Part shown: one piece after another, positions 9,485 to 42,259 of the stretch | How the letters are laid out: each line of letters begins with the position of its first letter | Position numbering within the stretch: the first letter of the stretch is position 1 | NCBI GenBank assembly: GCA_900618425.1 | Contig: UZAN01039579.1 | Span: forward strand, 76,697 to 140,696 | Direction of reading: 5' to 3' | DNA: 64,000 nt | Source of the DNA: Echinostoma caproni | Lineage: Eukaryota > Platyhelminthes > Trematoda > Plagiorchiida > Echinostomatidae | Notes under the pieces: generated by a model | Database searches by the model: none | The model's input: only the letters and a program-made list of their open reading frames with translations | Told to the model about the DNA's origin: nothing | Translations under genes and position numbers: made by a program

Positions 9485-9837
9485 CAATTCCAAATCAGAG
9501 TTCGTCGTGTTTATAGCAAATGAAGCGTGAACTGAAAACCTAAGAAACACTGGATAGCTGTTTTGACCTGATTGTCCATGCAACAAGCTTGAAAAGATGG
9601 GTTGTAATATATCGTGTAAGTGAAAAATGAAAACGGTTTGATCGGCTTCCCCGTGACTTAGTGGGTAGCATGCTTGAGTTCTACCTATGAGGTCCCAGGT
9701 TCGACCCCCCCCCGTTGGGTCGATGGATTGGGACTACCGATGAGACCCAGCCAGATAGAACCAGCTAACCAGTGCTTTCTAGCTTTTCAGTTCACGTTTC
9801 ATTTGCTATTTACATGCCGAATGAGCGTTTGGAGTTG
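9485..9837 (+). mobile_element. Hammerhead SINE unit with inverted arms (degenerate)
   Basis: One unit of a tRNA-derived family. The left arm, 9485-9598, is the family tail and ribozyme region in reverse orientation (CGTCG...AGCAAATGAAGCGTGAACTGAAAA). A spacer with GGGTTGT...ATATCGTGTAA lies at about 9599-9640. A tRNA-like head follows (A box about 9654-9670, B box GGTTCGACCCC at 9698-9708), then the ribozyme region 9731-9775 and the tail. The outer 11 bp, 9485-9495 and 9827-9837, pair with two mismatches. The ribozyme core is mutated: CTGATGA reads CCGATGA, GAAA reads GAAC and the cleavage triplet GTC reads AAC. It should be inactive. Confidence 0.75.
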
Positions 9838-10018
9838 CTTTATGCATCTCGTATTAAAAATTCGAAAGAAACTGCGCAATATAACATAACAATATAATAC
9901 AACAAACTTAAAAATAACAATACCATGCAATGGTGTTTCTGGGGGATGAGAAATACCCGTAACGTCTTCTAGAAGATTGTTTTACAGGACTTGAGGTAGT
10001 GTGCCACCACATTCTGTA
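9838..10018. repeat. AT-rich tail sequence
   Basis: The segment 9878-9925 is a run of ATAACA/ATACAACA-like motifs that could be the 3' tail of the minus-strand LINE next to it. A 12-bp perfect palindrome, TCTTCTAGAAGA, lies at 9965-9976. Confidence 0.3.
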
Positions 10019-10730
10019 CTACATGTTCCCGTGGTATGAGACTGCACAGAAACATAAATTTATGTATCGGAAAATTAGTTCATGGTACTTCTTAAAAAGA
10101 TGGGCAACGGTAACAAGGGTTCCATAGGGTCGGTGGGGCCAAACGTAGGCAGAAACAAACGCCTTTTGAGATGCGATAAAAGGTATGTTAAGATATAAAG
10201 CATAAAACGTGATCTCCTTGACCTTCAGATAGATATCTTTGACTTGGTCCGACGAGGTGAGGTTACGTGTGTAAATAACGCCAAGGTATACAACAGCCGG
10301 TTGGCGATGCATTCGGTCACTGAAGATAGATAAAGGCGTGCTGATAGTTGACAGTTCATCATATTTTTGATCGTGCAAAAGGGGAAAAAAGGCGTCATTA
10401 TATTTTTGGGGGTTCATATGGAGGTTCCTTCTTTGAGGCCATTGCAATACGTTTGACGTATCGCCTCGTAGAGTGGTCTGACATCATGGGTTGAAGTAGG
10501 GCAGTCCGAATATTAATTATATCGTCTGCATAACTAACAAGAAGAGAAGAATTTCTCATGGGTAGACCCTTTGCGTCCACAGCAGTAGATGCGCCAGATC
10601 TTCGCATAAAGGCTTGCCAGGTATCATTACTACCTTTGTTGTCAGTCGGAGCACGAACGTACAAAGAGTTAAGCCTGCAGATTTCACCCCTGATAGAAAG
10701 CGTGTGCATCTTTTGACTAAGGTTGCGAAA
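10019..10730 (-). mobile_element. CR1-like LINE fragment, RT C-terminal half (copy on minus strand)
   Basis: Two overlapping minus frames (10398-10709 and 10019-10447) give the second half of a LINE reverse transcriptase. Motif C reads SYADDI, with YADD codons at 10521-10532. Downstream come the thumb segments HMNPQKYND (usual form LNPxKC) and VVYLGVIYTRNL (usual form KYLGVxL...LSW), in the expected order. Upstream of YADD the match to a palm is poor. The switch of frame within the overlap shows at least one frameshift. The element is truncated at both ends and not functional. Confidence 0.65.
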
Positions 10731-13587
10731 ACTATCCCTGGTTAAGTTGTTGATCTATGGGATGAACAAACATAAGCCTTAGGCATTAACTGAAGAAGTA
10801 ATTTCGGGATATACTCATTACAGCCCTGCGTTTCATTACATGACCGTCAAGAGATTTGCTGAGACAAATCGCTACACATCGAAAAACTGTAAATAACATG
10901 TTTACATTGGTATTACCGTTTATATCTATGGATTTAGAAAACACAATACGCACTACAACTGCAACCTGAGGAAGGTCGTTGCACCGTGAAATCTAATAGA
11001 CAGTGGCGCCAACAGTGCCGTCCACTCAAAGTAATTTACAGCATCTGCTCTGCGGAACATTTTCCACAAAATGTAACTGTTCCAAATGAACGAGATGCAG
11101 AAAAACCATGTTTATTTCGTTCACGTGTATGTGATAGCATATCAGAACCTTTAACGCTCAGATTCCTGTTTGCCACTTAACATTTTGATCTTATTCAGCT
11201 TTTGTCAATTTTTTGATGTGTATCGACCCAGGAAACTGGAAGAGTTCTTGGTCAACCACAAATATTACAACAGTACAAAAATATTACTCTACTGTTCATT
11301 TAATTTCTCGAATAAAGCCATTCGATTGTTTTGAATGAACATGGCGAGAAAAATTGATCAATATCCACTACATTTGTGGTCATTATGTTTTCCGTTTTGT
11401 TAGGATATTCTTTCTTGAAGTTAACACAAACTGTTTCAGTACCGCAACATAAGTTATCGTTTCAATAAGCACAGTGGAAGAAAAGTCAACTGGGATCAAA
11501 AAAATGTTGATGAGGGTCGAACGTTCGATTGGTTTTGAACTACAATGGACCATACCGCTCGGATTTTGTTGATAATTTGCTGCACGCACGAGTTATGAAA
11601 CTGGATTCTTTATGGGCACATGCATGCTTACTAATTAAAGCGTCGTCTGTTGGGAAATTCTCCATGGTTCCCGGAACTGAATAAAATAAACAAAAACAAA
11701 TTAACACACGCAAAATAAATATTCTAATACACGTTATAAACAATTAGTGATCCATATACTATCGACTGAATGTCTCAAAACAGATTTTGTTTGTTATGAA
11801 GTTTGTAAGCGAAGCAGCGCTTTGTATACTGTTTCTGTTAATTTCAAGAAGAAATCACCCGGTTATAAAATGATAATCAATTTGTCTGGCTTACTCTCCC
11901 GTTTATAGATGCTCGTATTGATCTACTTCTGCACTTACCTGCATGACGAAAGTATCCTTTTTCAGTGAAATTCCAACTGAATTTCTAGCAGAAGAAAAAA
12001 CGGCAACACGAATACTGATCATCTCATTGCATGCTATGACTCATAAATTCGGTTTGTGCACAAACAAGAAGTTTCTGACTTTTATTTTCAAGTTAAACCA
12101 ATCACGTCATAGAGGGGAACATGTCCTTTGTGCTTATTTCAGAACTGACTGGGTTGATAATCATCATGGTTCTACGTTCTGTATGATGAGGTTGAGTGAA
12201 CGATGCAGACTGTGATGAAATGATTCAGATGGCGGCAAAATGGTATTGCTTTTTCGCACTAGAAGCATGGATGAACAACCATTTTCACTGAATGAATTGG
12301 GGTGATTATTTTCTTCGAAACATATGAAAAAAGAAGGATCACATTATTTTTCGTTTCTAATGGTTCATTTTTATGGGTTCCAATGATTAACTAACTGGAT
12401 TCTTCAGTTATTGAATGTATGATCCCTTTTTAAAGAAAAAAACCGAGTGAATATACGCCGCATCGGAAATAATGTTGTGAAAAGTCTACTGGTTAGTTTA
12501 TTCAATATGATAATCAATCATCTCAGTAGGCTGATGATTAGACATATTTGTTCCATAATGTCTCCGTCGCGTACCATATGAAAATATTCATCATCAAGAC
12601 AGTTCCATTCAAAAAAATACGTGGCTATGAAATGCAGGTTATCCGGATTGTATTAGTTTATTATGAAGTCAAATATGTGTGCACAATTCTAGTCACTTTC
12701 ACTGGTAGTGAGAGATAATATAATAATCTTAAATAAACTAACGAGAGCGATTATGTGTACCTTTTGATGAATCGTCAGAAGACGAAGATAGTCGTGCAAT
12801 GATTCCGAAACCTGTTTGATGGTGGGTAACACAATGACCTTACATGACAAATACGCTTGTATAAACCCTACCATGTTTCATCACTGCAGGCACGTTTCTA
12901 TATAACGTGCGACGTTTTGCGCAAACTCGCTGGCACCATAAGGGTGCCATTAACAGAATCCAACAGTTTTTAATAATGCAATATAATTGCACGCTTCGTG
13001 CCACCCCTTCGACTTGATTGTGGTGTGTATTATACTATGGTGCCATTACGTTTCCCCAGCAAGCTTCCAGGACCAGTCTCTTCCCAGCTTGATCTGGGTT
13101 TTGGAGCCAAATGAAAAATTTATCCGCAACCAGGAGAGCAAATAACCACAAGCAGCATTGTGTCAACTAGACGTGCATGATGTGAAAGTAACCAATGGTA
13201 GGGGATTGGAAAAGCATCATCACCAAACGTACCACATTCAACCCTAACAAATCCATAAAAGCAACATAAAAACGAGAATAGTCAGTGGGTAGGAATTCTA
13301 AAACGTGATTAAAGGCTGTATATCATACAAAAGGCAACATATATAGATTAAGAAAATGGTAAATCAATTGAAACTTTCTGTTTCATACGTTTCTGTGAAT
13401 ACGCATTTGTACTGTTCCACCTTGTCATCATGGTGCTTCACCAACCCAAATCCCAAGGCTTCTTCTTTTACTTTTCTTCTTCTTTTAATTTTACTTCCTT
13501 TTATTGAACACGCAATGGTACGATTTTCAGGAAGGGGAGAAGCGACCAATCAAAGGGCAGTCATTCAACACACAATGGGTAAAGTCA
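10731..13587. other. Unannotated AT-rich stretch
   Basis: No gene is recognised. A small hairpin GGCACC-ATAAG-GGTGCC lies near 12931-12947, and a pyrimidine-rich run TTCTTCTTTTACTTTTCTTC at about 13459-13500. Frames are short and unlike any family I know. Confidence 0.4.
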
Positions 13588-13662
13588 GGCGGTGGTGGTG
13601 GAATTCGAACACACATCCCCCGGATGATAATTTGGTAACGTTACCACCGGGCCACCACCGCC
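13588..13662 (-). repeat. tRNA-like sequence with closed acceptor stem
   Basis: On the minus strand 75 nt are closed by a perfect 11-bp inverted repeat, GGCGGTGGTGG at one end and CCACCACCGCC at the other. The A-box-like block reads TGGCCCGGTGGTAACG and the B-box-like block GTTCGAATTCC. The middle forms CATCC-GGG-GGATG rather than a normal anticodon arm, so it is more likely a tRNA-derived pseudogene or SINE head than a working tRNA. The A and B boxes resemble those at 3.1 kb. Confidence 0.5.
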
Positions 13663-16600
13663 CGGCTTTGGTTCACGATTCCCATGAGTGATCAGAAGGT
13701 CTCTGGTATTGCATGGTTTTCATTCTACCACCAGTATTTAATTGTAACCTGTTACTTTACACACAAAAGATGACGGGGTTTTTCTGGTCAGTCGTCCATC
13801 ATTGATGCAGGCGAAAGATTAATCAAAGGACAAATTTTGAACGAGACCAAAAGCCTCATCAACTGTGAACCAAATGAAAACTCCGCATTCTCCCTCGTCG
13901 GATTTTGGATGTATGAATACATCCGTCGGCTTTTATTGGTTATTTTGGCCAAAAACCTGTTCATAAAATTAATTTTGTTTGCTTGAAAAAGTAGGCTGTA
14001 TGTCAAAATACACCTCCCAATAGCTGTTCATTACTGACCTAGTGGCAATACTTGCTCGTTTTGAAGCTGAATGTACCCATTGAAATGCTTTCAATAGCAT
14101 CCGTTTATATGTATATTCTGGTACACAGTATCCTGAATAGCCAGAGACATTCTCTCTCATGGACCTTGATCGGGTCAGTAGTTGATACAGCTCGTCAAGG
14201 TTTGGGAAACCCATAATCTATTGTCAGGTGGATCATATACTTGACCTGATTAGAAACGCTTCGTACACATGTTGAATGTGCCCGCAACTGCGTGGTGGTA
14301 CATATGAACCCAATATTCGTGAATGTCTTTAGCTAGAACACTTTTAGGTAATTCTGATCCAGGTTTCCGGAAGGCAGCTTGGTTTAACTTCGGCGTTACA
14401 TTTTTTTAAGAACGTGTGTCAAATTTACCTTCCTATCCAATATACATCAAATACGTGTTTGCAAATTCTAGAACACTCGATTTCATTCACGTGTGCTCCA
14501 ATTTACTTAACGAAATAATGCTTTATTATTACATGACCGTAAGCATGGGAGAATTTAAAAAGTACAGGAACTCCAAACGTTTGAACTATCTGGAGAAATC
14601 CAAGGTAAAGTCTTCGATAACAGTAAACAACAATATTCTACTTCCCGGAATCTGTAAGGGAGTGGAGTTCAGACAATGTCGTCAATATAAAAGAAACAGC
14701 ATGATGTTTTAAGTGTGCGTGTGTGCAAAGCCTTTGCAATAAATCATGTGCTGGTTAAACACAATTTTCTGCTCCGACACTCCCGACTATTTTTGTTTCC
14801 AATGATATCAGCAATTGTGAGTAACTTCTCAGAACGCATAGAGAAGCAGCGTTTTGCTTCAAAACATTTTTGTGATAGAAAATAGTGATAAATTGCGTTT
14901 CACTATTCGGCTTTGTCAAAATTTGTGGCATGGTAAACTGCACGAAGAAGCAATTTTCTAGGAGTATGGAATCAAACGTTGGAATGAGGGCAAACTGTGT
15001 GTATCAAATGGTCAACTAGTATATACATAACGTTGCCATCTCATACGGTACGTATCACGTGTGAACGAAAAGAGTCTCAACTGCCTGGGTACCTAGAAAA
15101 ACTGAAGAATACATAAACTATGTTTTGTAAGCCCTCAAGTGTCACGTGTTGATACCCATTAGAAGCCAGGGGTAGCAAACGCTAGAAATATGCCGCATGT
15201 TTTATGACCACCACAAATTTGGGATTCTTTACGGTCCTCAAAATGCTCGATGTGATATACTGCAATGCGAAAATGTGGATAAAATGCCGCTTTAAAATGA
15301 GAGATAATACTACACATTTTTTTCCAGCACAGGTCTACTGCACCGTGCCGTGATACAGAGGACACAATATAACCTTTTGAATGTACTCGAAGCTGAACTT
15401 AGTCAGACCGGGAATACATATCTGCCAGTTTAACAAGCTGACGCAGGTACGAAATTTGTCAATTTCTAACGGAAGCCAGTATAATTCAGTCGAACGGAAA
15501 AATCATGCAGATGAAGCTTTATCTGCGTTGAATTCGTTTAAATTTATTCGTGCTGTAGATCTGAATTCTTTGATTGTCAAACAACCTTTCTTTTGAAATT
15601 TACTGTCATGTGATGCATTTTAAATTTGGGCTGAATTCACAATTGGTCAAACATTTTCTACCTCAATGGAGACGAAATTGCAAAGAAACCGGTTCAGAAT
15701 AAGGATTGTGTAAGGATGAAGGGTGGCAAAACCAACGTTTTCTATGTAAAAACTGTTAGTCATCTTAGAGTTGTCCGGAAACTGGACAACCGTAACATTA
15801 TCTAAGGTTGACACAGAAAAAAGTTAATATTTTCTGGTTCGAAAAAAATATATTTGACTTCTTTCACCCAGAGCGCATATTTAGTTTATATTGGAAGATT
15901 AATCGCAAGGTGAGTTTGCATAAACAATTGTGGTAACTTATTCAACACTTGGCACACGTATTGGGTTCGATTAAAGTAAACCGAATCACGGAAGAAAAAG
16001 CATCTAAGCAGGTAAGATGATGAGTTTCCGCTTCTATGCTTCTGTGCGTACGTGCTCGTTTCTATTTGCACAGAGTGTTGATGTGCACAGCAAGTTGCAT
16101 TTTGCCGTAGTTCGACGATCGGACAGAATCAAGGACTATTAATGTTATCAAGGAAATGCAATGGAAGGTGAACAAGTCATACAGAATTTATTGAACGACC
16201 ATTTATTATCCCGCAGTATTCACTGAAAAAAGACCTTTCACCTTCAAAACGTTAGTTGTAGTAGTTCTTTGAGTGCAGTTATTGCTAAGGTTGATTACAT
16301 ATGCCAACAATTTAGCGCAGCTTCTATAATTTAGCATTTCTATGGAACTTCAGCAACTGTGCGACAATTTTCTATAATGCAACCTCTGATTTTACTGCTG
16401 CACTTCTCAGTTACACGTCTCAACAAGTAAATCAATCCTCCTTCAAATTTGATTTACTTCGGATGGGAAATTAGTTCCACCTTTATTGATGAAATTCATA
16501 GTATAAAGAACGTGAACACTGGATAAATCTTAGAAACTGATAAGATAGTGTGTATATTACTAATCATCTAGTAAGACTAAGTTAAGGGTTCATTTCTTCG

Positions 16601-18749
16601 ACAACATAAGTGTACAAGGAGGATGCTCGAGTCAGTCAGATGAATATTGAAAATGAACAAAAGTTTCTGTATATTTGTGGAGGTGGTGCGATTCAAGCGT
16701 TCAGCCTAGCTCGCTTAAGACTTTTCAGTGATAATGGAAAAGTATGTCGTTGATACCACACTACATGTGGTGTTTATCGTCAGCATAAAGAAAGAAGTGA
16801 ATGGATAGCGAAATACTGTTGGCATTAGTGAACACGCGTGTAAAATGCAAACATGTTTGTCCTATATCTCCATGGAGTAGATGGTGATTGTTTTCAAATC
16901 TACATTTCGACAGATTATAATCCGCCACAGAAATAAACAGTTGTCATATCAGAAATAGTTAAACTCATTGAGCAAGCGATCACGTTTCGTTGTCATTCTT
17001 ACGCGCCTAACATGCGAATATTTGGGAGAATCCATTTTGTTATCACAATGATAATCATACTTCACATTCAAGGGGTATTCTGTTTGATGAAATCGCATCG
17101 ATGCGTAGTGAATGAATGACGTGTTTTAGTATTTTTTGATCTGAGGACAAAGTGATGTAACAGATAATTGGGCTTAAGTTTCTCCGCATAAATCTGGAAC
17201 ATGGTTTACAAGCTGTCAGTTCTGTGTGACTCCAACCCAACAAATATAAACTTAAGTATAGGTTTTCAGCGAACTCGTGCAACATGACTCTCATTTCCAA
17301 ATTGCATATCACTTTTCCAATATCACACTTGTACGTTGATAGTTATGTTATTTCTCTTCTATCAACGTTTAATTTCGTCCGCCTTGAGTGTTACAATGAA
17401 TAATCTTAGTTCGAAAGTTACAGATTTAGCAAATATTTAATGCGAAGCAGCATGGATCCTTATTTTTTCTAATACGATATTACTGTTGCATGAAACGTGT
17501 TTTGACCAGCTTATATCTTCCCAATTAGTGCTAAGTAAACAAACCAATTATTGAAAGTTGTTTAACCTAAAGAAATTGATAAATAATCAGGCTGGGGAGT
17601 ACTTATAGATGAAGGTTGGAATATCTTCTCACTTAAAAATGAGAGTACAAAATAATGAGACCTCAGAAAACATTTTTATTTCTCACTTATGCAGTTTTTG
17701 GATGAGCAAAATTCGAATGTCAAACCCATTCAATTACCTCTCATCAGTTGGGGTTTGAATGCAATAGCAACATTTCCCTTGTGTTCGAAAAAGTTATGTT
17801 AGCTGTCTCGACACAGGTCGTCAGAAGCGGGGGTGTTTCATGTTTCAGAGGAAACTGGCAAATACTGTTTGGTAGTCTGTTTGGTAGACTCCATGCAAAG
17901 GCGACTGCCTCCGGCGCTTATAGAGGAAGGAGGACAAACAGGTTGACAACAGGAAAGTATAACACGTGCATCGGGCCTACCAGTTGTTTTTATACATAAA
18001 TCCTGATTGTATTTTTACTGAGTCTTCGTCATTTTACAACTGGTGCACCAGCAACCGTCGTTGAAATCGAGAAATGGTAAATTTTATTGGCGTTTGGCAA
18101 AAAGAAGCGGAACCCCCAATGAATATTATTAAATATTCTGTTGCGCCTGATGTGGGGTTATATTATATACAATCCCGCGAACGACGCCTGGGATACTGGG
18201 CGCGGGGATGAATGAATTTAACGAAAGTCAGTGGGTTGCATGAGTTTGATCAATACCTATAATGAACATAAAACGAGTGACAAGATCATTCTACAAAATT
18301 TTATTTTTTGTGACCTTTCTTTTGAAGTATAATACAGCGTTTACTATGCAACTCAGAAGTAGAATCAGCACTCAAGACAAATCAGGACAGTGCCATCATG
18401 GCCTCCAGGCTATACTGATTGTATTTTCAGATAAACGTGACGTTCGTTCATTCGCCGGTTGATTGCGATCAAATCGCATTGCATCGCATCCAACACATCC
18501 GAAAAAGCAAACATGTTGCTGTTAGTTGTTCAAGTTCGGCAGGCGCGAATACCAAACAGAGCTACACACCAGCGTGAATGTTCACAATTACTTTGACATT
18601 TCGTAGCTTTCTCACTCTTGTGTTGTCCGATGGACACGAACAACGAAATGAAACGAAAATTACACAGAGGAAAGAATCAGGTCACATGATTTGCTGCTGA
18701 TGCTAATTTGAGTTTAGGTTCTTGTACCGTGAATGTTTCATTTGCCTCC
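13663..18749. other. Unannotated AT-rich stretch
   Basis: I see no gene or named element in about 5 kb. A GC-richer patch at 17,815-17,960 contains a short tandem duplication of CTGTTTGGTAG around 17,866-17,890. Its 83-codon frame (17748-17999, plus) is unrecognised. Confidence 0.4.
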
Positions 18750-18837
18750 GTGTGCTTCGACAATAGAGGATCCTTTCTGAGCCGATTTTTGGGGCAGTCG
18801 GTGCCGACTTGGGCAACTTTCCGATTCAGGTGCTACT

Positions 18838-19131
18838 TCAGCAGCTGATGCAGTTTAATGTTAAAGGCAACTGCCTGCTGCAGAACACAAAATGGAATGC
18901 CTGCAGTCTAGGTATGCACCTAGCTGAGCGGTTAGTGGGATGAAGCAATGCTGTACCATAACCAGTTTCCTCTATGAGGTTCCCTCTCATTCGTCCTCTC
19001 TTGAGGGAGAACAGGTATAACCTCCTGAGATTCACGCTGTATGCAACGCCACTCATGCCTTCTATGACCCTCGTGAACCTTCTTTGTACATCATCTGTTG
19101 GCACTTGCTTAGGTTCAGCGGGAGTTCCCAT
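18838..19131 (-). pseudogene. LINE RT thumb/C-terminal fragment
   Basis: A 97-codon frame contains DDVQRRFTRVIEGMSGVAYSVNLRRLYLFSLKRGRMRGNLIE. It matches the common C-terminal pattern of CR1/Jockey polymerases (VQRRxTK...LP YxERLxxLxLxSLxxRRxRGDLIE). The family pattern stops after NLIEETGYG, so the end is frame-disturbed. Sequence to about 18,750 may be the 3' end of the element. Confidence 0.7.
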
Positions 19132-19640
19132 TGAACTGTCCTCTCCTGGATCTTGTTCAGATCCTCTTGCAATTGCGGCACATATGGCCGGCCTAGGATT
19201 TTAACGTTGTCATCAAACAACTGGAGCGGCGAGCTCAGGCCACTGGCCATGTCGTTGATGTATACGAGGAACAGTATGGGACCAAGAACCGAACCTTGGG
19301 GGACCCCACTACAAGCTTCGGCAGACCCTGATATATCGTCGCCTACTCTCATCCGAAAGCTCCTGTTGTGCAGGTAGGCTCTCAAGCAATCTACTACCCA
19401 CAGGAGCAACCCTGAGACACTCCAACTCGTGTGGCAGAAAGCGATGGTTTACCGAGCTGAAAGCTTTCCTGAAATCTAGGTAGCATACCTCGACTCGCTC
19501 TCCCCTATCAAGCCGGTTCGACACCTCATCCAGGTACGACAGCAGGCTGGTCTAGCAGGATTTACTTTTAACGAAGATATTCTGCTTATTAGCCATTAAT
19601 CTATTTTTCGTAAGATGTTCGGCCAGTTTGTTTCTAATAA
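19062..19640 (-). pseudogene. LINE reverse transcriptase palm, broken
   Basis: Frames 19309-19524 and 19062-19409 carry consecutive RT motifs. Motif A reads VCYLDFRKAFSSVNH, with Ser replacing the usual Asp in AFDSV. Motif B reads CSGVPQGSVLGPILFLVY. Motif C reads LFDDNVKI, where the family norm is FADDVKI, so the catalytic pair is altered. The frame changes between motif A and motif B. The region just upstream (HLTKNRLMANKQNIFVKSKSC, about 19,550-19,620, in another frame) is the fingers segment. Confidence 0.75.
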
Positions 19641-19722
19641 CCCTTTCGAATACCTTCAACACAATCAATAATTTGCCGGCTGTTCTCTATTGCCCCCTTT
19701 GTGAGTGGGACAACCATTGCAG

Positions 19723-20541
19723 TCATCCAATCTCTGGGCAGCCGCGCAGTACGGAGGGACCAATTGAACAGCTCCGCGAGGGGTCCGGCCACGATCGCCG
19801 CAGTGGATTTAAGGAGGTCGGGATGAATATCATCCGGCTCTGCGGCCTTTTGCACATTAGGCTTTGTACATTATCCCTTATTTCATCTGGTGTTTCTCGG
19901 AAGCCATTCATTACGGAGACTGAGTTCATCAGCATCCTACCCGGCGGTTTACTGGGGTGGACACTTTTGGAAAACCTACGCATTTCCTCGGCTTTCTCGC
20001 CGTTGGTCCGGGCGTCCAGGCCTCGAGCGTTCCTTATGCATCCTACCGCTACTCTGGTAGCTCCACTGGACTGGACATAACTAGAGTATGCCTTCGGGCA
20101 GTCCTTGGCTTTGTTTGTCAGTTTTCGTTCAAATTGAAGACGGCAGACCCTCTGGACTCTTTTAGCTCTTTCACTCCTACACTTGTAACAGGCACCTGTG
20201 GATCCTTTTTCTTTTGAATCGCCTCCACGCTTGCTTGTTTTCATTGCTGTGCCTTGGTGGCCCGGCTCGTCCACGGGGCCGGCCATCGTTTTATGTAACA
20301 GTTCTAAGTAGTGCAAATTCCTCAGTGAACCGCCCGAGCTTCTCCTTGAAGAGGTGCCAACCTTCTTCAACACTCCCGTACGGCGAGTTCCATTCCAGTC
20401 TTCCAGGCTCCTCGAGCTTGCGCTGTTTGTTGATTTTTTACAATCCCTTGTTAGCTTCAGTTGGGGCACATCTATCGCACCTGGGATGGTGAAACGCAAC
20501 ACTCCATGGTCACTCCGCCCAAGTGGTGCTGTGATTCTCAA
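19723..20541 (-). pseudogene. LINE ORF2 fragment: endonuclease end and linker
   Basis: This 272-codon frame is among the longest uninterrupted coding relics in the window. It opens with APLGRSDHGVLRFTI, the final endonuclease motif, so its first Met is internal to the original protein. It continues through a basic linker containing RLQFERKLTNKAKDCPKAY and SYVQSSGATRV, the usual stretch before the RT in this group. It then loses the reading frame, because the RT entry (AEPDDIHPDLLKS, PLAELFNWSLRTARLPRDW) is found in the overlapping frame 19634-19855. No start codon or untranslated leader is evident. Confidence 0.7.

Positions 20542-25934: not shown

Positions 25935-25970
<36 letters not shown>
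25935..25970. repeat. (CA)18 microsatellite
   Basis: A pure dinucleotide run of about 36 bp, flanked by ACTG on the left and CCGGATCC on the right. It is likely length-polymorphic. It creates a spurious Thr-His run in one frame. Confidence 0.95.
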
Positions 25971-25972
<2 letters not shown>

Positions 25973-26233
25973 GGATCCCCAATGACGATAGAAACAAAAT
26001 ACCAGTGATTAATCACCCAATTCGGGGGTCACCATTAGGCGAGCGATGCGATTTCAGCCGGGATAAATCCTCATATCATCTTCCGTTTTTCAGGGCAAAA
26101 TGGACATCAAGTGAAGTAATTGTCGGAATCAATTAAGAGGATGAATGTGCACCGGAAAAATAGTTGTTCAAAGGAGTTATTTTTGGTCGATATTATTAGG
26201 AGTTTCATGTGGGTAATGAAGGATTTGGTTAAA

Positions 26234-26417
26234 TTTCAAATGACAATTCGTCGTGTATATAGCAAATGAAGCGTGTAGTCCCGGTTTCGATCCCCAGTCG
26301 GGTCGATGGATTCGCACCGCTGATGAGACCCAGCCAGGTCGAAACAGCTGTCCAGTGCTTCCAAGCTTTTCAGTTCACGCTTCATTTGCTATATACACGA
26401 CGAATTGTCATTTGAAA
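26234..26417 (+). mobile_element. Hammerhead SINE unit with perfect 42-bp inverted arms
   Basis: A 184-bp unit. The left arm, 26234-26275, and right arm, 26376-26417, are exact inverted repeats over all 42 bp. The right arm is the family tail (CGCTTCATTTGCTATATACA, then CGACGAATTG). Between them the tRNA-like head is reduced to its B box (GGTTTCGATCC, 26283-26293), followed by GGGTCGATGGATTC and an intact hammerhead core. Compared with the 41.7-kb unit, the spacer and A box are missing, so it is probably an internal deletion derivative that lacks a full pol III promoter. No target duplication is visible. Confidence 0.85.
26314..26358 (+). ncRNA. Hammerhead ribozyme, intact core
   Basis: This is a self-cleaving RNA motif. 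Stem I is GCACCG (26314-26319) against CAGTGC (26353-26358), five pairs and one C-A mismatch. The core CTGATGA is at 26320-26326. Stem II is GACC/GGTC, four perfect pairs, closing a six-base loop CAGCCA. Then come GAAA (26341-26344), a CAG/CTG stem III and the cleavage triplet GTC, with predicted cleavage after C26352. Past stem I, GGA and TCC can pair across an asymmetric internal loop. CAGCTG leaves no hairpin loop for stem III in a single molecule, so cleavage would favour a dimer or multimer. Every conserved core base is present. Activity is predicted, not shown. Confidence 0.88.
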
Positions 26418-28344: not shown

Positions 28345-28365
28345 TTATATATATATACATATATA
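28345..28365. repeat. AT-rich simple repeat
   Basis: Alternating TA run with one CA interruption. Confidence 0.8.
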
Positions 28366-32688: not shown

Positions 32689-32716
32689 ACAGAGAGAGAG
32701 AGAGCTNGAGAGAGCT
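32689..32716. repeat. (GA)n microsatellite with an unresolved base
   Basis: A GA run with an N at 32,707. The same GAGAGAGCT block stands on both sides of the N, which suggests a collapsed or mis-joined repeat. Confidence 0.85.
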
Positions 32717-33199
32717 CGCGCGACCGAACCGTTCATGCATGATCGTCGTCCACTGGCGGCATCAACACCACCTTTTGCACAGTAAGCCACGTGAAAGGTA
32801 GAAAAGCAAGAATCACGTTCGCGAGGCGCAATGAAGCATACAGTTTACCATCCCCTTGGTAACGCGGGATTTTTCAATACATTTTTCCTTCAATGTGGAT
32901 GGCGAAAAATATGTTCCATGCATTTAATTAAAGTGTAATTTAAGTGCGCAAAATATTCCCAGTACAAAACAATGAACTATGATTATGTCATAGGTCGGTA
33001 AATTTGTTTTAGATATATTGATAGTTACCCAGAAGTATGGCCCTTTTTGATAGTGCTTAGATTAGAGTAGAGAAAAGAGTATGAAATTAAAGAACCAGAA
33101 TAAAATAAGACACATTGCTCATATTTTAAATAAATATACGCATTGGATTTCCTGTGTAATAATATTCAGTCTGCATTTTAGATAAAAAAGTTTTATTAG
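32717..33199. other. Unannotated stretch
   Basis: A GC-richer patch at 32,715-32,850 gives way to AT-rich sequence. No gene or named repeat seen. Confidence 0.4.
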
Positions 33200-33603
33200 T
33201 AATTGGGTTTCATCATGCATCTAGCGAATGAATCGTAAACCACAGTGCTGGTGGGTACATGACAACGATTTTGATCTGATTGTGAATTCGTCGAACCCGA
33301 GACCTTACAGGTAGCTTGAGAGCATACCATCACCTCGTCCAACGAACCGTTGACGAGATCGTTTTCACTTCGCTTTTGTACAACATAGCACTGCCCATCT
33401 TTCTAAACTTATTGCGGTCATGGCCTTTTGCTCATCTCAGCGCTAGTCTGCTGGGTTAAGGAGTAGTTTGCTTGCGTTGTATCTGTGCAGTCTCCCACTA
33501 GGTCGATAAAGTCGCATTGCTGACCAAGCCGAATCAACTGTACTGTGCTTCTCTATCTTTCAGTTCATGGTGCAGTTGCTCTTTTTACGACACAATCAAT
33601 TGC
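33200..33603 (-). mobile_element. Hammerhead SINE unit with inverted arms (old, strongly diverged)
   Basis: The minus-strand half, 33200-33400, shows in reverse order a tail (TAGCGAATGAATCGT), a ribozyme region, a tRNA-like head with CGAACCCGAGACCTTACAGG, and the leader GATCGTTTTCACTTCGCTTTTGTACAACATAGCACTGCCC in degraded form. That leader matches the spacer of the 41.7-kb unit. The plus-strand half, to 33603, has GGTCGATAAAGTCGCATTGCTGA followed by CTGTGCTTC and the tail. Outer ends pair loosely. Both ribozyme cores are destroyed: the plus copy has lost bases after CTGA, and the minus copy reads CAATCAGATCAAAA. It is the oldest of the four units by divergence. Confidence 0.6.
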
Positions 33604-36600
33604 ATAAATGTACTTACATGGGACCAAAGATAATTTTANTTATTAATTGTTGAAATGAGGTGTGCACGACTATGTGCTTCATAATGTGGTATAGCACCAT
33701 TTATATCATCATTTATATAATGAAAATCAAATTTCTTTTCCCCAAGTTGAATACACGATTGGGCGTGATTTTGGGCTTTCTAAGACGATAGGTTGTGGGT
33801 GGGAGTAAATATAATTCTTTATTTCGCTAAAGTTTGAATTTAGCCCTTTAATTTCGATAACTANCATAATTCATGCTCGCGAACTCGAACCGATGAATGA
33901 TTACCCTTATTACCGTAAAGTGTTATTTCAGAATATCAGCCGCTATTCCCAAAATAAAGTGGTGGATATAAACTGCTGACAGTTTCTGCCAGTGACGAAG
34001 CGACAAATTCCTAACCCATCCAAGGCTTCAGAAATCTATAATCTGTGAGTTATTATATTCTAACAGAAGGTGCTATTTTCTAACGGTTTGGATTGACGGA
34101 TTAAGAAACTGAAACTATAAAACGAGTTGATTCGAACGCATTTATTCGCGGTAGACATGGACCTTTTGGGGTGATATAAATGTCTTACTCGCATCCTTTG
34201 ATACAAATGAGATCGAGTTCTTTTACATGGATTCATTCGAATTGAACTGTTTTCTTATTATATTCCACAAAATTTTGTTTAGCTTTGTCTCGTATTTTCC
34301 TATAAATTTAGAATAAAGTTCATGCATTTCATTGGAATTTTTCCTTCGAACTTTGCGCATGGATTTCCCCTTCCGCGAATGTTTGGTAATTGAACCTCGT
34401 TACAGGAACGTCGTTGTACGCATGTTTTCCAAGCAGATAATCTATAAAACAAACTATTTTGAGGGCGTTCGCGGGAGGAAGAACAAGAATAGGGTGCACT
34501 TTGAAAAACATTCTGCTTCGGTTCACACCCGAGGAATGTCATTGCCAGGTGGCGAGACAATTGTGAATTTGATGAAGTGTGTATTCTTCCTCTAACTAGT
34601 CATTAATACACCACCTACAATTGGGTTTAAATTACAATTGGTGGTCCCAATCTGATGTTTAATAACAGTTCTAGATGGTTATTCATATATCACTCCATAT
34701 TTTCTGGCTGTATCTATACACTTTTACAATTTTACAAAAATCACGCTTTGATCTGAAATACAATAATAAAACCGGAAAGATAAACACAACGGAGCAGGCT
34801 TGAATCGAGAAGCGGGGATGTGTATTCACTGCCAAACAGGGTACTTTCTGAATCTATCTGTGAAACATATTTGCAGAATTTGAATAGTTTAAGGGTTCAA
34901 AAACCCAATCGGTTAACTATATGACTTACTTTGGGTCACCCCATCATTTCAACCATTGAATAAACTTTTTATTTATTTTCAGGGACGTTGACTTCATCAC
35001 CCCGATGAGAAGAGGAGAGAGTTAGGAATAAGCTAATCTATTTTACTACCAATGATGACGTCCAGGTCTAACTTTGGAATTCAATTTGAATCATTAGAAT
35101 GCATAAAAGAAAAGCTGGATGTTAACTTCCATTGAGAGGGGCAAAAAACATTGCAGCACAGAATGACACACACAAACTGGAAAGTTCTATGATGAAGCGA
35201 GGAGACTCAAAATGGTATTCAATCGTTCATAAGCAGATAATAATGCGCAAAGTTTTAAAGATTCACAGATATTCACTGAAGGAATGAGAAAAAAATAATC
35301 ATATATAAGTATACTGCAACGATCAAAGAAATAAAGGGTAGATAAATAACTAGTAGAATTCCTTTACAAAGCATGTATTGTTGAGGCTGAGAACAAGTAG
35401 GGACTAAATTCCGCGGGTGAAAATGGGACATTGGTAGAACTGCCAAAAAGCCGATTTTCGTACTATGAGAACAAAGCATACATATATGTCTTGAGAAGTT
35501 CGGCGGTATCCGTAATCAACGAGGCAAATTACTACCCTGATTTCATCGGTTATCAGCAAATTCACGTGTATTGGATTTACGCAAGGCACAAGCTGAATCA
35601 AGTCAGTCAAACTTGGTCGAATCGAATAACTATGAAACAGAACATGGTGCTGTGCCCAAATCCCGTTTCAGGGGCTCAAGAACTACGGGCAACAAGAAAT
35701 CAGGAAACACCGCGCACCATCTCGGCACTTAATGACTTTTATGTACTAACTAACAACCATGATCTATCTTTGACTGACTCGAGTCAGTAGTACCAAATGT
35801 TGGCAATGTGACGAATGATTAAACTAGAGAATACAACATAACGAAAGTGAAAATGTACATATGCGCTGCTCTAAACCCTAATTGGAGCTAACACAACGTC
35901 TGACGGGAAAATCGACTGGATTTCTCCAAATACTGTTCATTCACATTTGACATTTATTGTTCATAAAAGGATCCGCCGCGGCAAAACAGTGTATTTATCA
36001 AACTCGAGCAACAGTACGACCATCAGTTTTATTCCTCATGAGGTTGAATATGCAAAATGTCCGTAATTATTTCAACCAATGTTTTTGCTTTCACTAGTCA
36101 AATGTCATTAGAATACATAATTTCTCGAAGACGGTTTCTGTTGCATCAGTGAGAAACTAATAAAGCCTCCGTGAAAGCGGAATAAAAGTTTTACTTATAA
36201 AAACGTCTCCTGCGTATTAAACATTTTTCACTTTCGAATTTATCAATGTTTTATTGGTTCTTCTTCATGTTTGAGCGCTGGTGGTGGTCATTTTGCACGA
36301 GATCCACCAAATTGATGTCGAATTTCTTTTTTAGATTTCCTTCAGTACATGTCGTATCCCGGGCACTGAAAATTACTGTTGAGACACCATATTTCAAGTC
36401 AAAGAATTAAATTATTGTGGTCAACTCGCTCGAACTATCTTTCTCACTAGCTTCACACTTGCAATCGTAATGAATTTTCATGTCTCTTTTATGTTATCGG
36501 TTTCGTCCCTCCTGATTTCTGCGTCAAAGTAGAAATTTTGCTGATCTGGTGATAAATCGGATATAGGTTGAATGCAAACACTTGCAGAAATCAGAAACAT

Positions 36601-37249
36601 AGACGGCGAATTAATGTGCCTCTCAACTACGTTGCCACTGACCTTTAACCATTTACCGAAATCTACTGTGCTTTTTCCATCCGCTTTGGGTATAATAAAA
36701 AAGAACATATTCAACCAACCGCACAACACATGGTCACATTTGATGGACAAATGTTGTTGGTCAGAATATATTTTCAGTTACTGTAGGGTAAGGGTTTCCA
36801 AGTAAGGAGCATGTAGCCACATAGTTCATTTAAGATAGGACGTTTTAAATAATCGCCTTAGTTTTGCATGGAACAGATGAAAAATATTCGGTATGCTTGA
36901 ATTGACCAGAATACAAACCCTCATGCAGGTATGAACGTTTATGCTGCTTTGCATAAAATTGTTTTACTTTATGAGATGTAATGTGCAAGCTAATGTAAAT
37001 GTTACCATGATATTCAACGCAAATACAAATGGTGATTTAATAGAACCAAAATATTGCAGCGAGAGATGAATTTCGGTATAACTGCTACCCACCCTTAGCT
37101 GTCGATATGCATGTATGATACTGGAAAGTGAAATGGGTTTCCAAAGTGACAAGCCTCTTAGATGGGTTCGATAAATGACTGCAAAGATGCGGCCTGGAGA
37201 ACTGGAGAACAGATAGAAAAATTGTATGGCGAATGGGAAAAGTCGGGTA
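33604..37249. other. Unannotated AT-rich stretch
   Basis: No recognised gene. Unresolved bases lie at 33,639 and 33,864. A 16-bp perfect palindrome, ACTGACTCGAGTCAGT, lies at 35,773-35,788. A 119-codon frame (35431-35790, plus) and an 86-87-codon pair around 34,300-34,595 match no family I know. Confidence 0.4.
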
Positions 37250-37328
37250 GCCTCGGAGGGATTCGAAACCGCGCACGCACGTTGCTTACGCTTTTAACGT
37301 GCACGCTCTACCAGCTGAGCTACGAGGC
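37250..37328 (-). tRNA. tRNA-like gene or tRNA-derived SINE head
   Basis: On the minus strand 79 nt begin GCCTCGTAGCTCAGCTGG and end CCGAGGC. The acceptor stem pairs at six of seven positions. The D arm GCTCAGCTGGTAGAGC is perfect and contains a canonical A box. The B box reads GGTTTCGAATCC. The anticodon arm is poor: ACG-TTAAAAG-CGT leaves only three pairs and would present AAA, which is not a normal anticodon for a class I tRNA. A longer alternative hairpin GCACGTT/AACGTGC competes. I therefore favour a tRNA-derived repeat over a functional tRNA, though a working gene cannot be excluded without a covariance search. Confidence 0.5.
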
Positions 37329-38086
37329 CACATCGGCGGAACTGATCTTTTCACATTCAAATTACCCATCCAACTTACAGAGGCATGTGGCATCCACCGA
37401 TTAGCATGTAAGCTGACTACCCCGCCAGTTTTTCCTTAGAGTTCAACGCGGCCCACCAAATAAGATTCTAAGGCAAGATTTATTGTTTAAATTGTTATCT
37501 GGCATATTTGAAGTTTGTATGGCCATTGTGAATCCCGCCAAGGCAACTGATATTTTCCAAATCTGCCAAACAACAATTAGAACAAATGAAAGCATTCTTT
37601 GACATAAAAGGTTTCCTCGTACATATGAGAACAGTCCACTGAAATATTCACCCAGTGAGTAGCTTGCATACGTTGTAATGGAACAGAATTTACCACTACA
37701 ACTGCAAACGATGTCCTGTTTTTCATTTGTTTCCAAAGGAGTCGCACCATACACGAACAGACTGTTTTTCTTCTGGAGGCGTATAGTTTTGGTTAAGATC
37801 TATCCCTAATATGTAATTGGTGTTTCTTTGGAGCGGAACCTGCATATATAGGACAACATCATATGCTCCAACAGTCTGGAATAGAGCACGTTTTATCGGA
37901 TGCTACGTGAAGGTCAATACAATATGATTTTCTCAACCTATGCGGAACAAATGATCCAGAACCGGTGTGACCCACACGAGGCTAACAAAAAAGAGCAATT
38001 CGCGTTCTGGTGTGGATGACGTCTCAGAGAATGAAAACCGAAAGCTTTCAGTGATTTCAATTTGTTTTACTGCTAATTAAGGTCAT
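37329..38086. other. Unannotated stretch
   Basis: A 103-codon minus frame (37443-37754) is unrecognised. No other feature. Confidence 0.4.
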
Positions 38087-38480
38087 CTTGATAGACAACA
38101 GTTGGCCACTCGTATTTCAGACTACGTCCCGAGACATTTAGCACTCAACAGCTCGAAGGTCCCCTTCAGCTCTATTGCCCGACATATCTTGGACTGCAAA
38201 TTTTGCATCGATCCAAACCAAGCATTCCGGGTGTTAAACCATCAGAAAACTAGGCGGTCGTTACGGTTTGCTGAGGCCGTAGCCATTCGGCATCACAAAC
38301 CAGACGTCTGCAAACAATTAGACTTTGTGGCCAGCCTAACTCTCGCATGGTAGGGTTGTCACCTTGATCCACATCGATAAACATGTTCTCCCACCCTATC
38401 CCTCTGTTCAACCCGAGTGTGATTGGTGACGTTTGACCTTCACACTGATTTTGTCTAGTCAAGCGATTTTGAAGTTTAAA
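38087..38480 (+). mobile_element. Penelope-like element 3' fragment (copy B)
   Basis: The frame 38102-38353 (84 codons, preceded in frame by RQQL) is a largely intact C-terminal half of a PLE GIY-YIG endonuclease. It reads ATRISDYVPRHL, SSIARHILDCKFCIDPNQAF, RRSLRFAEAVAIRHHKPDVC and finishes KQLDFVASLTLAW before a TAG. The conserved GIY-YIG arginine (here in RIS) and the glutamate in RFAEA are present. The GIY and YIG part is missing, so the element is cut off at about 38,087. The 3' region to about 38,480 is non-coding and shares CCACC...CTGTT...GTGATTG blocks with the 23.9-kb fragment. It cannot transpose. Confidence 0.8.
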
Positions 38481-41400
38481 GATTTGTCATTTTCCTGATC
38501 GAACTTGCACAGATGAATCTTTGTACATAGCTGAAAGGATAAGGCGAAACAGTTAAATTCAACCTATCCTGTGACTATGCTTGTTCTTGCTCTTATAAAA
38601 AGCTGAACAATCCTCATTGTAAGCATACTTCGCGATTTCAAAGTTTGTGAAAAACGTGCATCCACATGTGCACAATGAACGCGTTAATACTGTTGACATT
38701 CTAATTATCTCACATATCGGTAAACGATTCAAGTGTTGCAAGAAAGTTGATTACAGGTGCTCAGAATAAGATGGAACAATGAACGAAGACCGCATTTTTA
38801 AAATGGGCGCGGTTTTCATGTCCCTTAGGATCTGAATTAGTATAATTGAATCAACTAATCGTTAGAAAACAGAGAAACGTTAGGTTAAGGGTACCGACAA
38901 TTACATGCACAATGGCAGACCCATGTTTTAGTCTGCATGTTCTGTTTTTGACCTCGCATTTCTGTTGCTATTTTTTTCAAAAAGCTTTCCTACTTTAAAT
39001 AATTTTGCGGTCCGATCGAACCTCTGGATATGTTTCAGTTGCTTAGATAGAACGTTCTCTCAGGACGTCTACATTTTATAGTTGCACGGTACACGTTATC
39101 AAATTCCAGCTACTGTACTGGAACAAGAGGGGTTCATACAAAGCGCAACTCTCAGTTGCAGCCCCATACTACACATATGCAACCAATCCTAACTGTTAAA
39201 TCCATTTGGTATCCGTCCGATGTTTAGACGCATTCTTTTCTCCACTGTCCACGTAAGCTGGAACGTCGTGCATAAATAAAGCTTATTCTTTTGAATGGAA
39301 ATCTTACTATGAATCGATTCTTATTCCCCGAAGTTTGATGATCGGATGATTGGAGTTGGCTGTCGCAACCCACTTACATATGCGGGTTTTGTGGTATCGT
39401 GCATGGATAAAGTAAGAAATAGTCCAACCAGGTACCCGCTTGCAAGTGAGCAGTACGTTTGGGTCCCAACTGCAAAATCGCCGTTTTTTTCTTTTTGATG
39501 GTTTAATTCCCACCACGGATGAGACGTCACGGTGAACCCCCTGTCATCCAGAAAAATTCAGATCCCGTTCAATTTTATAGGTAAGTTAATTCTATCACCC
39601 AGTTTCGGTCGTTAGTCGCGCAGTCCTCAATTCTGAGGATGTAGCGAAGTACTTTTAGATATTTCTTCCTTATGGTATTTTCTGTTTCACGTACACGTCA
39701 CATTTGTCTGATTAAACAAAGGCGATTTTAAAATTGTATTTTCTACGAGACAATATATTTCAAATATTGCAGTGGTTTGAATTCATTTCACGGAAGATGA
39801 CGGTTTTATTTTGGTAGGCCCAGCGTCTGTGATTTACTCGCTCTCTAACAGAACCCCGTTCTAATGATCATCAGTTACGTTCAAAGTGTTGCATCAAATA
39901 AGATATTGTAAACATTTATTTTCTGCCCAATTGTTTCACAAACGTATGGGTTCCTTCCCATTGTCCAGTATACCTAAATAGAAATGCATTACACCTTGGG
40001 GGAAAAACGTTGTTATTCAAATGTAACAAGAATTTGGTGTTCCTGTGGAGCAATCACTGAAGAGTGTTCAGCTTCTTGAACACAGACAATATCAAGCGGA
40101 ATATTACTCAAAACAAACAAGCCTTATCTGAACTATGGTAACTTGACAGATATTGATTTTCTCCTTTCTTCCTCCCTGGGTTTTGCATTATTCAAATTCA
40201 CGAATGAACAACGTCGCAAAAACATGCATCAACAAACAGGCGTTTGCAAATAATGACATCATTTTCCAGTGAATCCGTACAGACACATAAACATTAAAAA
40301 TACGATACAAATGAGTAATTGGTTGCCAAACATAGACAAATACCAATTGTCTCTAACTAATTGACTGATTAGCTGTTTCAATAACCGAATAGAGAGTCTG
40401 ACTGACCAACAGACGGAACTGATTTCAGGAATGAGCGTTTCTTTAAATGATTGTACTTAAGGTTATTTGATTTAGATCTCTTTACCATCAGAACAATTGA
40501 ATTGCTTTCAGACATGTCTTACAATTCACCGCATAATAACTGATAACTCAGTTGGATTCTCGCTTTTGGTATTTGTGTTGCTCAATTAAATTTCACTCCA
40601 TTTAAAAATGAATTGTTGCCTCTATGCGACTATCGATGTTTCCCTAATCTAAGACGCAGTCAGAGCTTAGGCTGCATTCTTTTATTGGTGGAACGTGGAT
40701 CCTCGTGAATATCTACGGTTTATCCTCTCGATATGTAGCATATGAGAATGTGCTAGATCAAAGTTATGATCCGGCATTACCCATCCCTCTATTTGAGCTA
40801 TTTTGGCAATGACTGACTCTTGATACTTGCTCTTGGTTGCGTAAAATAAGCTTCTCTTTGTTCTCGTTAGCTGAGTCTCTGAGAAATGTAATCTTCAGTA
40901 ACCTTGAATTAGTTTCTAATTACATCAAGTAACTTGGTCGAATTTCGCAGAATGAGGTCCTCAAATTAGATTCATTCACACCGGTTTATTGCACGTGTGT
41001 TCCGCAATCAATCACTCTAATAGAACAAACTTTCACTCACCTTGCGCGTACAGTCCTCGATTGTATGACAGCGTTATCGTGGAACAACTCGACATTATTT
41101 ACTTTTCCACCATATGCATGTAATTTTGCAGTTCTGTTCACCAGTCGTCTTGCCTTCCGACCCAGTTACATACCTATCGCATTCGGACGCTTTTTAAGAA
41201 AAAAAAAACACCTATCTCGATGTTTGACGAACGTCATTCATGATGATTGATGTCTGGTTCCAACTGCCTTGGTTGATCCAGCTATGCCCGTGGTCAGAAT
41301 GGCTTTTTATCAGTCAAATGCTTCAGTCGAGTCGTGCGGAAACAGGTGCATGTGACAAGCTTGGGTAATCTTTTGTCACAGGTGTGTGTGCAAAAATGCG

Positions 41401-41654
41401 CACCAGACTTGAGATGAAACGTGAAACAAAGATGTAAATAGTTCAACTGTGTGTTAATAAATAAATAAATTTTCCCCGTTATGTCTAACTCCGTTTTTAC
41501 GTCGGTAAACCACCCAGGGTGAAACGAGTGAATCGCCGCTTCTGACAAATTGTGGAAACCTCTTGAACCGTTTTCGACAACGGCGAGGGCATAGGAAATC
41601 AGATCTGAACGTTCGTGTTTCTTTCATATTTATCTGTTGACCAAATACTTAAGT
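38481..41654. other. Unannotated AT-rich stretch
   Basis: No gene recognised. 39,307-39,530 carries two minus-strand frames of 69 codons that overlap and match nothing known to me. A GGTTTAATTCCCACC segment near 39,500 resembles a B box but has no partner A box. Confidence 0.4.
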
Positions 41655-41721
41655 ATTTTAAGTCTCAAATGGGAATTCGTCGTGTATACAGCAAATGAAG
41701 CGTGAACTGAAAAGCTCGGAA

Positions 41722-41766
41722 GTACTGGACAGCTGTTTCGACTTGGTTGGGTCTCATCAGCAGTGC
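41722..41766 (-). ncRNA. Hammerhead ribozyme, minus strand, conserved core intact
   Basis: Read on the minus strand: stem I GCACTG/CAGTAC (one C-A mismatch), CTGATGA, stem II GACC/AGTC (three pairs plus a terminal mismatch) with loop CAACCA, GAAA, the palindromic CAGCTG stem III, and cleavage triplet GTC. It sits downstream of the tRNA-like head on the same strand, so a pol III transcript would contain it. The weaker stem II may lower activity compared with the 26.3-kb copy. Confidence 0.82.
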
Positions 41767-41785
41767 GAATTCATCGACCCGACCG

Positions 41786-41848
41786 GGAGTCGAACCCGGG
41801 ACCTCATGGGCAGAACGCAAGCGTGCTACCCACTACGCCACCGAGCAG
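41786..41848 (-). promoter_or_regulatory. tRNA-like head with pol III A and B boxes
   Basis: The A-box-like TGGCGTAGTGGGTAGC at 41825-41840 and B box GGTTCGACTCC at 41786-41796 on the minus strand lie about 30 bp apart, as in tRNAs. The head reads towards the ribozyme and tail. The T arm CCGGG-TTCGACT-CCCGG is perfect. This is the internal promoter type expected for a tRNA-derived SINE. Confidence 0.75.
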
Positions 41849-41916
41849 CTGATCAAACCTTTTTTTCATTTTCCATTTACACGATATAGCACAACCCCAG
41901 TCAGGTCGATGGATTC

Positions 41917-41961
41917 GCACTGCTGATGAGACCCAACCAGATCGAAACAGCTGTCCAGTAC
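41917..41961 (+). ncRNA. Hammerhead ribozyme, plus strand, conserved core intact
   Basis: Stem I GCACTG (41917-41922) pairs with CAGTAC (41956-41961) with one C-A mismatch. The core CTGATGA lies at 41923-41929. Stem II GACC/GATC has three pairs and an internal C-A mismatch around loop CAACCA. GAAA at 41944-41947, CAGCTG and GTC complete the motif, with predicted cleavage after C41955. It lies in the arm without a tRNA head, facing the minus-strand copy. It shares the CAGTAC and CAACCA variants with that copy, which differ from the 26.3-kb unit. Confidence 0.8.
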
Positions 41962-42259
41962 TTCCTAGCTTTTCAGTTCACGCTTCATTTGCTATATACA
42001 CGACGAATTCCCATTTGAAGTTTAAACAAATCTTCCATTACTCCCATGATATTTTAAATCTCCTTGAGACGTCATTAGTTTTGTCAGACTATCGTTCTTT
42101 AACCTATTTTTCCAAGTGATCTGTAAAATGTTGAAACACGAAGTTGCTGGATGGGAAATAGCTCAGATCATGATATCCTTCTGTCAAAGAAATCGTGTGC
42201 TCCCCCATTTGTATTCTTACATTTTCCTGTGATCCTTTGTGGAACTTTGCCAAGCTCCT

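Follow-up and report, generated by a model that had tools for sequence, protein, structure and literature searches.

Insertions of a short retroelement carrying a type I hammerhead ribozyme were found to be frequently organized as foldbacks in the genome of the trematode Echinostoma caproni, with two inverted arms of the same unit joined head to head and their tails pointing outward. The family was examined from a stretch of 64,000 nucleotides (nt) (assembly GCA_900618425.1, contig UZAN01039579.1, positions 76,697 to 140,696; hereafter the window) and in a genomic sample of 98 insertions. A total of 58 of the 91 insertions that could be assessed are two-armed, and the tails point outward in all 58. 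One arm typically ends at a site at the very end of the unit (S2) and the other mostly at a second site 31 nt upstream (S1), whereas the inner junctions vary from copy to copy. The foldback arrangement is therefore real, common and extends beyond the window. The element probably integrates by target-primed reverse transcription in a Penelope-like manner.

The repeat unit and its copies in the window

The unit, as defined from tandem copies in the fetched loci, is 363 nt long and encodes no protein. It consists, in order, of a leader, an A/B-box-like stretch (A-box-like at u154 and B-box-like at u198, both placed by eye against the consensus), a type I hammerhead at about u228-272, in which cleavage is expected after u266, and a tail; positions preceded by u are unit coordinates (u1-363). 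Two sites in the tail recur throughout this analysis, namely S1 (u323-332, ...CATTTGAAAT) and S2 (u354-363, ...CACATGAAAT). An exact tail word, TTTGCTATATACACGACGAATT, has 488 matches genome-wide with none for the reversed control, and a word between S1 and S2 has 244, again with none for its control. Family copies are both dispersed and tandem and are without long terminal repeats (LTRs), and 25 of the 98 insertions contain a unit-unit boundary. Judged by these features, the element would be a hammerhead-bearing, non-autonomous retroelement resembling a short interspersed nuclear element (SINE), that is, a metazoan type I retrozyme.

The assembly around the window comprises 426.5 Mb in 12,689 contigs, and the window is part of one contig. 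Arms in the window were called by an inverted-repeat search, a unit-based parser, Rfam at gathering level and local alignment against shuffles. A first-pass annotation had described inverted arms at 9.5, 26.2, 33.2 and 41.7 kb, and the family was indeed found on both strands, tails outward, at all four loci:

9474 to 9574, minus strand: 9.5-kb insertion, left arm, u345 down to u245, 85% identity
9580 to 9836, plus strand: 9.5-kb insertion, right arm, u79-333, outer end S1, 81% identity
26194 to 26202: 26.2-kb insertion, left target-site duplication, TATTAGGAG, 9/9
26203 to 26275, minus strand: 26.2-kb insertion, left arm, u362 down to u290, outer end S2, 95% identity
26274 to 26417, plus strand: 26.2-kb insertion, right arm, u188-331, outer end S1, 95% identity
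26314 to 26358, plus strand: predicted type I hammerhead in the 26.2-kb right arm, Rfam RF00163, 42.1 bits
26419 to 26427: 26.2-kb insertion, right target-site duplication, TATTAGGAG
33291 to 33458, minus strand: 33-kb old copy, left part, u204 down to u36, 66% identity, with weaker similarity further left
33523 to 33591, plus strand: 33-kb old copy, right arm, u247-315, 71% identity
41654 to 41666: 41.7-kb insertion, left target-site duplication, TATTTTAAGTCTC, 13 nt with one mismatch, its last nucleotides overlapping the arm
41658 to 41897, minus strand: 41.7-kb insertion, left arm, u336 down to u98, outer end S1, 95% identity
41722 to 41766, minus strand: predicted type I hammerhead in the 41.7-kb left arm, Rfam RF00163, 47.0 bits
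41895 to about 42049, plus strand: 41.7-kb insertion, right arm, u206 to about S2, 90% identity
41917 to 41961, plus strand: predicted type I hammerhead in the 41.7-kb right arm, Rfam RF00163, 49.2 bits
42050 to 42062: 41.7-kb insertion, right target-site duplication, TATTTTAAATCTC

The arms at 9.5, 26.2 and 41.7 kb were detected by the inverted-repeat search. The 33-kb pair was undetected by this search of the window and was instead recovered by local alignment to the unit, with scores of 56 and 34.5 against shuffle maxima of 14 and 14.5 (100 shuffles each); it appears to be an old, diverged two-armed copy. No Rfam gathering-level hammerhead was found at 9.6 or 33 kb. Target-site duplications outside the outer arms, which the annotation had suggested looking for, were found at two loci, 26.2 and 41.7 kb; the other two, at 9.5 and 33 kb, gave none (the best score at either was 5).

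The fixed spacer that had been proposed to lie between the arms was not confirmed. The sequence concerned (GGGTTGT...ATATCGTGTAA) is ordinary unit leader at about u98-118, and copies with a single orientation contain it as well, for example L004 and L019 (L-numbers denote fetched genomic loci). The arm-to-arm joins are likewise unlike between loci, being u245/79 at 9.5 kb, u290/188 at 26.2 kb and u98/206 at 41.7 kb. Elsewhere in the window, Pfam matches to pieces of reverse transcriptase, endonuclease-reverse transcriptase and integrase were found in four of the eight frames scanned.

Frequency of two-armed insertions and target-site duplications

Thirty-nine loci were obtained by searching the genome for sequences similar to the window copy and 60 from exact-pattern matches. 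The pattern sample is made up of the stretches surrounding the earliest of the 488 matches in contig order; it is not a random draw and is blind to architecture. L001 is the window's own 41.7-kb copy, while L040-L042 are background stretches outside the counts. Dropping L020, which is the same insertion as L003, leaves the 98 insertions, seven of which were set aside because they were cut or gap-adjacent. A few loci are complex (L067 and L088), and several stretches contain gaps.

Two-armed copies account for 23 of 36 assessable insertions in the similarity sample. The first-pass annotation had named a majority of single-armed copies, together with unrelated junctions in its four pairs, as evidence that would count against an inherited unit; the junctions are unrelated, but two-armed copies make up 35 of the 55 in the pattern sample. 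Since two-armed copies have two chances of being found, the latter proportion was corrected for ascertainment, which gave fractions of 0.56 and 0.55 by two methods. L017 was scored as single-orientation, though a short S2 arm is visible by eye in its flank.

Duplications scoring at least 9 were found in 37 of the 98 insertions as compared to 2 of 293 pairings of unrelated flanks, and the shuffled control includes one score-23 match. They are distributed as 32 in the 58 two-armed insertions and five in the 33 single-orientation ones. Among the 36 sites listed, 35 measure 9-15 bp and the last is a 20-bp dinucleotide run; the targets are AT-rich. L016 (score 27, overlapping the unit) was omitted from this table, and L001, for which the script gave a score of only 4 because its right end was overextended, reaches 10 on targeted re-examination. 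As the duplication, where seen, lies outside the outer arms, a two-armed copy represents a single insertion event.

The sequence around the two target cuts was also compared. Adenine occupies position -3 of the S2-primed cut in 16 of 24 cases, a position less affected by extension bias. A pyrimidine is found at -1 in 20 of 24 cases on the S2-side cut as compared to 9 of 24 mirrored on the S1 side, a count that is biased because the duplications were extended maximally. The combined A-Y comparison of the two cuts is not significant (p 0.12), and the asymmetry between them is only suggestive.

Each arm has its own outer end site

Outer ends were assigned to classes by where the BLAST alignments end, allowing windows of about 19-33 nt. 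The 58 two-armed insertions comprise 35 S1/S2 pairs, three S2/S2 pairs, no S1/S1 pair, 15 pairs of S2 with another site and five of S1 with another site. For the 38 pairs with both ends classed, the observed 35, 3 and 0 (mixed, S2/S2 and S1/S1) contrast with 18.9, 11.1 and 8.1 under independence (chi-square p 1.4e-7). The three S2/S2 cases include L067 with four segments and L073 with three. Single-orientation copies terminate at either S1 (16) or S2 (17). Because the same site is seldom used twice in an insertion whereas both sites are about equally used, the simplest reading would be a single RNA common to both DNA ends, or a single enzyme complex offering two fixed positions.

The lengths of the S1 and S2 arms are anticorrelated (rho -0.51, n=29, partly fed by the requirement that one arm hold the search word), as if two syntheses compete. 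The S2 arm extends past S1 in 28 of 29 insertions, and the two complementary DNAs (cDNAs) thus overlap extensively. A different start was observed in L025, L028 and L035, where the second arm begins near u127-132 (AAAAT in the leader) and not at S1, with duplication scores of 9-12; this may be an occasional third start site.

Inner junctions and the template RNA

A total of 64 inverted joins were parsed and 62 compared, with L063 and the second join of L067 omitted. The inner ends are spread across the unit. Among the 52 well-fitted joins, 43 have no inserted bases and nine have 2-8 of them. Microhomology in the 43 clean joins averages 2.28 nt against 0.68 expected and reaches at least 2 nt in 28. 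Near-coincident pairs, in which two joins agree within 6 nt at both ends, number six among the 62 joins as compared to about five expected by our own arithmetic. Variable joins with microhomology, together with a spacer that is ordinary leader, indicate that the arms are apparently made anew in each insertion.

The ribozyme cut is traversed by 90 of 126 terminal arms, and nine arms are longer than one unit. Taken with the unit-unit boundaries, these arms suggest that the templates are mostly uncut or re-ligated RNA and not the self-cleaved linear monomer; passage of 90 arms across the cut would fit uncut multimers or circles. Run-off at the cut of a self-cleaved linear monomer was considered and rejected, as the stretch u262-271 contains just 2 of the 104 inner ends. 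Same-strand jumps giving partial direct repeats of the unit were seen in L026, L027, L072 and L083 and suggest template jumps during synthesis.

Penelope-like elements and a tRNA-type foldback

Five matches to GIY-YIG were found in the genome and four of them were fetched (L103-L106). Pfam recognizes GIY-YIG in L103 and L104, the latter also with RVT_1; L105 has a similar C-terminal frame, whereas L106 looks like a host nuclease and not a Penelope-like element. In the Penelope-like copy of L104 the left arm is inverted and the right arm direct (108 bp at 94%), the right arm is the longer by about 60 nt, and a 12-bp duplication (AATTCGGAGGTA) is present; in shape, this copy resembles the two-armed retrozyme insertions. 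L103 has a 65-bp inverted repeat. In L105 (456-700), a Penelope-like arm is joined directly to the retrozyme (u334-363-u1-149). This join was considered as a missing link and rejected; its 25-nt junction has a single genomic occurrence when up to 3 mismatches are allowed, which suggests a nested copy or a template-switch chimera. Separately, in L051 a retrozyme copy lies within another, broken Penelope-like reverse transcriptase frame (RYMDDTF motif by eye).

This genome also has another short element with the foldback shape, clear in one copy and decayed in another. In L104 (3490-3778), two tRNA-like sequences (46.1 and 48.8 bits for Rfam tRNA) form an inverted pair with tails outward; one arm is longer by about 30 nt, and a 12-bp duplication (GCATTGAATTCT) is present. 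A score of at least 12 was reached in 2 of 483 random window pairs. The decayed copy in L042 is an older inverted tRNA-type pair (9676-9715 and 9813-9871), also with tails outward, which has just a low-complexity 9-nt direct repeat around it. The tails of the tRNA-type element and of the retrozyme are not similar, with 1303 of 2000 shuffles matching as well. A relative of the tRNA-type element was seen in the window at 37222-37331 on the minus strand (110 nt at 80%), where 37248-37329 matches Rfam tRNA with 39.7 bits.

Integration mechanism

In the Penelope-like form of integration that we favour, an endonuclease would make one cut in each strand of an AT-rich target, the cuts being about 9-15 bp apart, and both target 3' ends would prime within the element RNA, S2 serving one of them and mostly S1 the other. 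Each cDNA would extend toward the 5' end of the RNA over a variable distance, and the two cDNA ends would then be joined, usually at a few nucleotides of microhomology. Fill-in would leave an outward-tailed foldback with the S1-S2 extension on one arm only and a flanking duplication. We infer that both primers act on one RNA or within one enzyme complex. The enzyme would be a Penelope-like reverse transcriptase with a GIY-YIG endonuclease, to which the form of the insertions points, and not shared sequence or experiment. In a fuller version, a single Penelope-like enzyme (perhaps a dimer) may hold one RNA and start both strands, S2 on one and S1 on the other; synthesis would normally be two-ended, and not only the hammerhead retrozyme but also the tRNA-type element, hence at least two unrelated SINE-like families, would be moved in this way. 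We hold the case for this fuller version to be evenly balanced.

Several observations weigh against Penelope-like integration. One side ends at a site other than S1 or S2 in 20 of the 58 two-armed insertions, 26 of the 58 have no duplication scoring at least 9, and 33 of the 91 assessable insertions are single-orientation. The right arm of the Penelope-like copy in L104 is longer by about 60 nt and not 31, and the retrozyme tail scores 17 against this arm, the sole one compared, with a shuffle mean of 18.9 (228 of 300 shuffles as high). In the anole Penelope-like element studied in vitro, the start site is alike on both strands and the starts are without homology to the cut DNA (PMC11167929), and the overlap of the duplications with the unit by several nucleotides at most ends contrasts with that report. 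Evidence of cross-mobilisation between Penelope families is reported to be lacking (PMC3846280).

The same two-strand (twin) priming might be performed by an enzyme of the long interspersed nuclear element (LINE) type that carries an APE endonuclease, like the enzyme of human L1, and this we consider unlikely. L1 twin priming with microhomologous inversion is known (PMC12016303), LINE reverse transcriptase fragments are present in the window, and the A-rich sequence before the S2-primed cut, with its adenine at -3, recalls LINE targets. The second site of L1 is however internal and unfixed, and Alu, which uses the same enzyme, shows inversions at 0.02% (PMC12016303), whereas the present family is dominated by one pair of sites with a 31-nt spacing and its two cDNAs overlap extensively. 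A search for a LINE with this tail, which was not exhaustive, found none. Another possibility is self-priming or a template switch to antisense, where one cDNA either snaps back on itself or moves onto antisense RNA, so that the complement serves as template for the second arm. It is compatible with heads-together arms and with microhomology at the joins, and has been offered for the inverted repeats of rotifer Penelope (PMC3846280), but snap-back predicts the same end site or an inverted flank, not the two different outer sites and the direct duplication around the whole that are seen. Snap-back cDNA is thus disfavoured by the unequal outer ends, and we regard this explanation as improbable for the family, while some events of this kind among the insertions are possible.

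The inherited foldback unit with a fixed spacer, moving as such, that the first-pass annotation had put forward draws on four two-armed loci in one window, three of them with a common leader stretch. Against it stand inner joins that are scattered, vary by copy and coincide about as often as expected, and a spacer that is part of the unit and occurs in single-orientation copies, and we judge it very improbable. The few complex loci and gapped stretches would also allow for chance nesting of independent insertions or for palindrome assembly artefacts, yet outward tails in every two-armed insertion, 43 of 52 well-fitted joins without a base between the arms and one duplication around the pair make such an origin hardly credible.

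Comparison with known systems

Twin priming of L1 is said to have been described by Ostertag and Kazazian in 2001. The insertions analyzed here resemble it in that both target strands would prime on RNA, an inversion junction results and the duplication lies outside; it accounts for 18.4% of germline and 21.9% of somatic L1 insertions, and Alu inversions for 0.02% (PMC12016303). They differ by paired starts near the same RNA end, by the large cDNA overlap and by a frequency of about 55% as compared to 18-22% for L1 or 0.02% for Alu.

The schistosome element SMalpha carries RNA polymerase III boxes. SMalpha and Sjalpha are cited as SINE-like elements in PMC8490949, where W36.2_W001 is about 335 bp, and by description they share with the present unit a SINE-like nature, similar length and a type I hammerhead; foldbacks or paired start sites are unmentioned in the accessible sections of that paper. 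Closer in kind are the metazoan non-LTR retrozymes (PMC7229834), which have a type I hammerhead in a non-coding repeat, RNAs of about 170-400 nt (the unit here is 363 nt), tandem and dispersed copies, and duplications of more than 4 bp. The word "inverted" is absent from the main text of that paper, whereas about half of the sampled insertions here are two-armed with paired start sites. The mobiliser of animal retrozymes was left open by Cervera and de la Pena (2020; PMC7229834), with Penelope-like elements as strong candidates.

The likeness to Penelope-like elements of the Penelope/Poseidon type with GIY-YIG covers inverted head-to-head arms, an optional tail of 31 bp (30-40 bp) on one arm, two adjacent reverse transcription start sites, a similar duplication size, AT-rich targets and a hammerhead nearby. 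In rotifer Penelope, inverted pLTRs (Penelope LTRs) are mostly head to head, one inverted pLTR has an optional 31-bp extension, and the duplications are 8, 9 and 10 bp long (PMC3846280). In the anole element, reverse transcription starts internally at two adjacent sites, the 30-40 bp tail being the sequence between them, and both target strands are extended, with AT-rich cleavage and a hammerhead nearby (PMC11167929). The retrozyme unit differs in being non-coding and having a putative tRNA-like promoter stretch, and its tail similarity to the one Penelope-like arm compared is not beyond chance.

No literature joining a hammerhead SINE with a foldback, or a hammerhead with twin priming, was found in a limited search. 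As far as searched, the link of a hammerhead SINE to the two-site signature of Penelope-like elements is new, as is the rule of one site per strand. Dozens of examined insertions, from a family of hundreds of copies, bear this signature and give structural support to the candidate mobiliser named in PMC7229834. If the one-site-per-strand pairing is true, the optional Penelope tail would mark which primed strand made that arm. For SINE biology, about half of the sampled insertions are two-armed against inversions of about 0.02% in Alu (PMC12016303), and the mirror-image ends point to the enzyme family that may move ribozyme elements.

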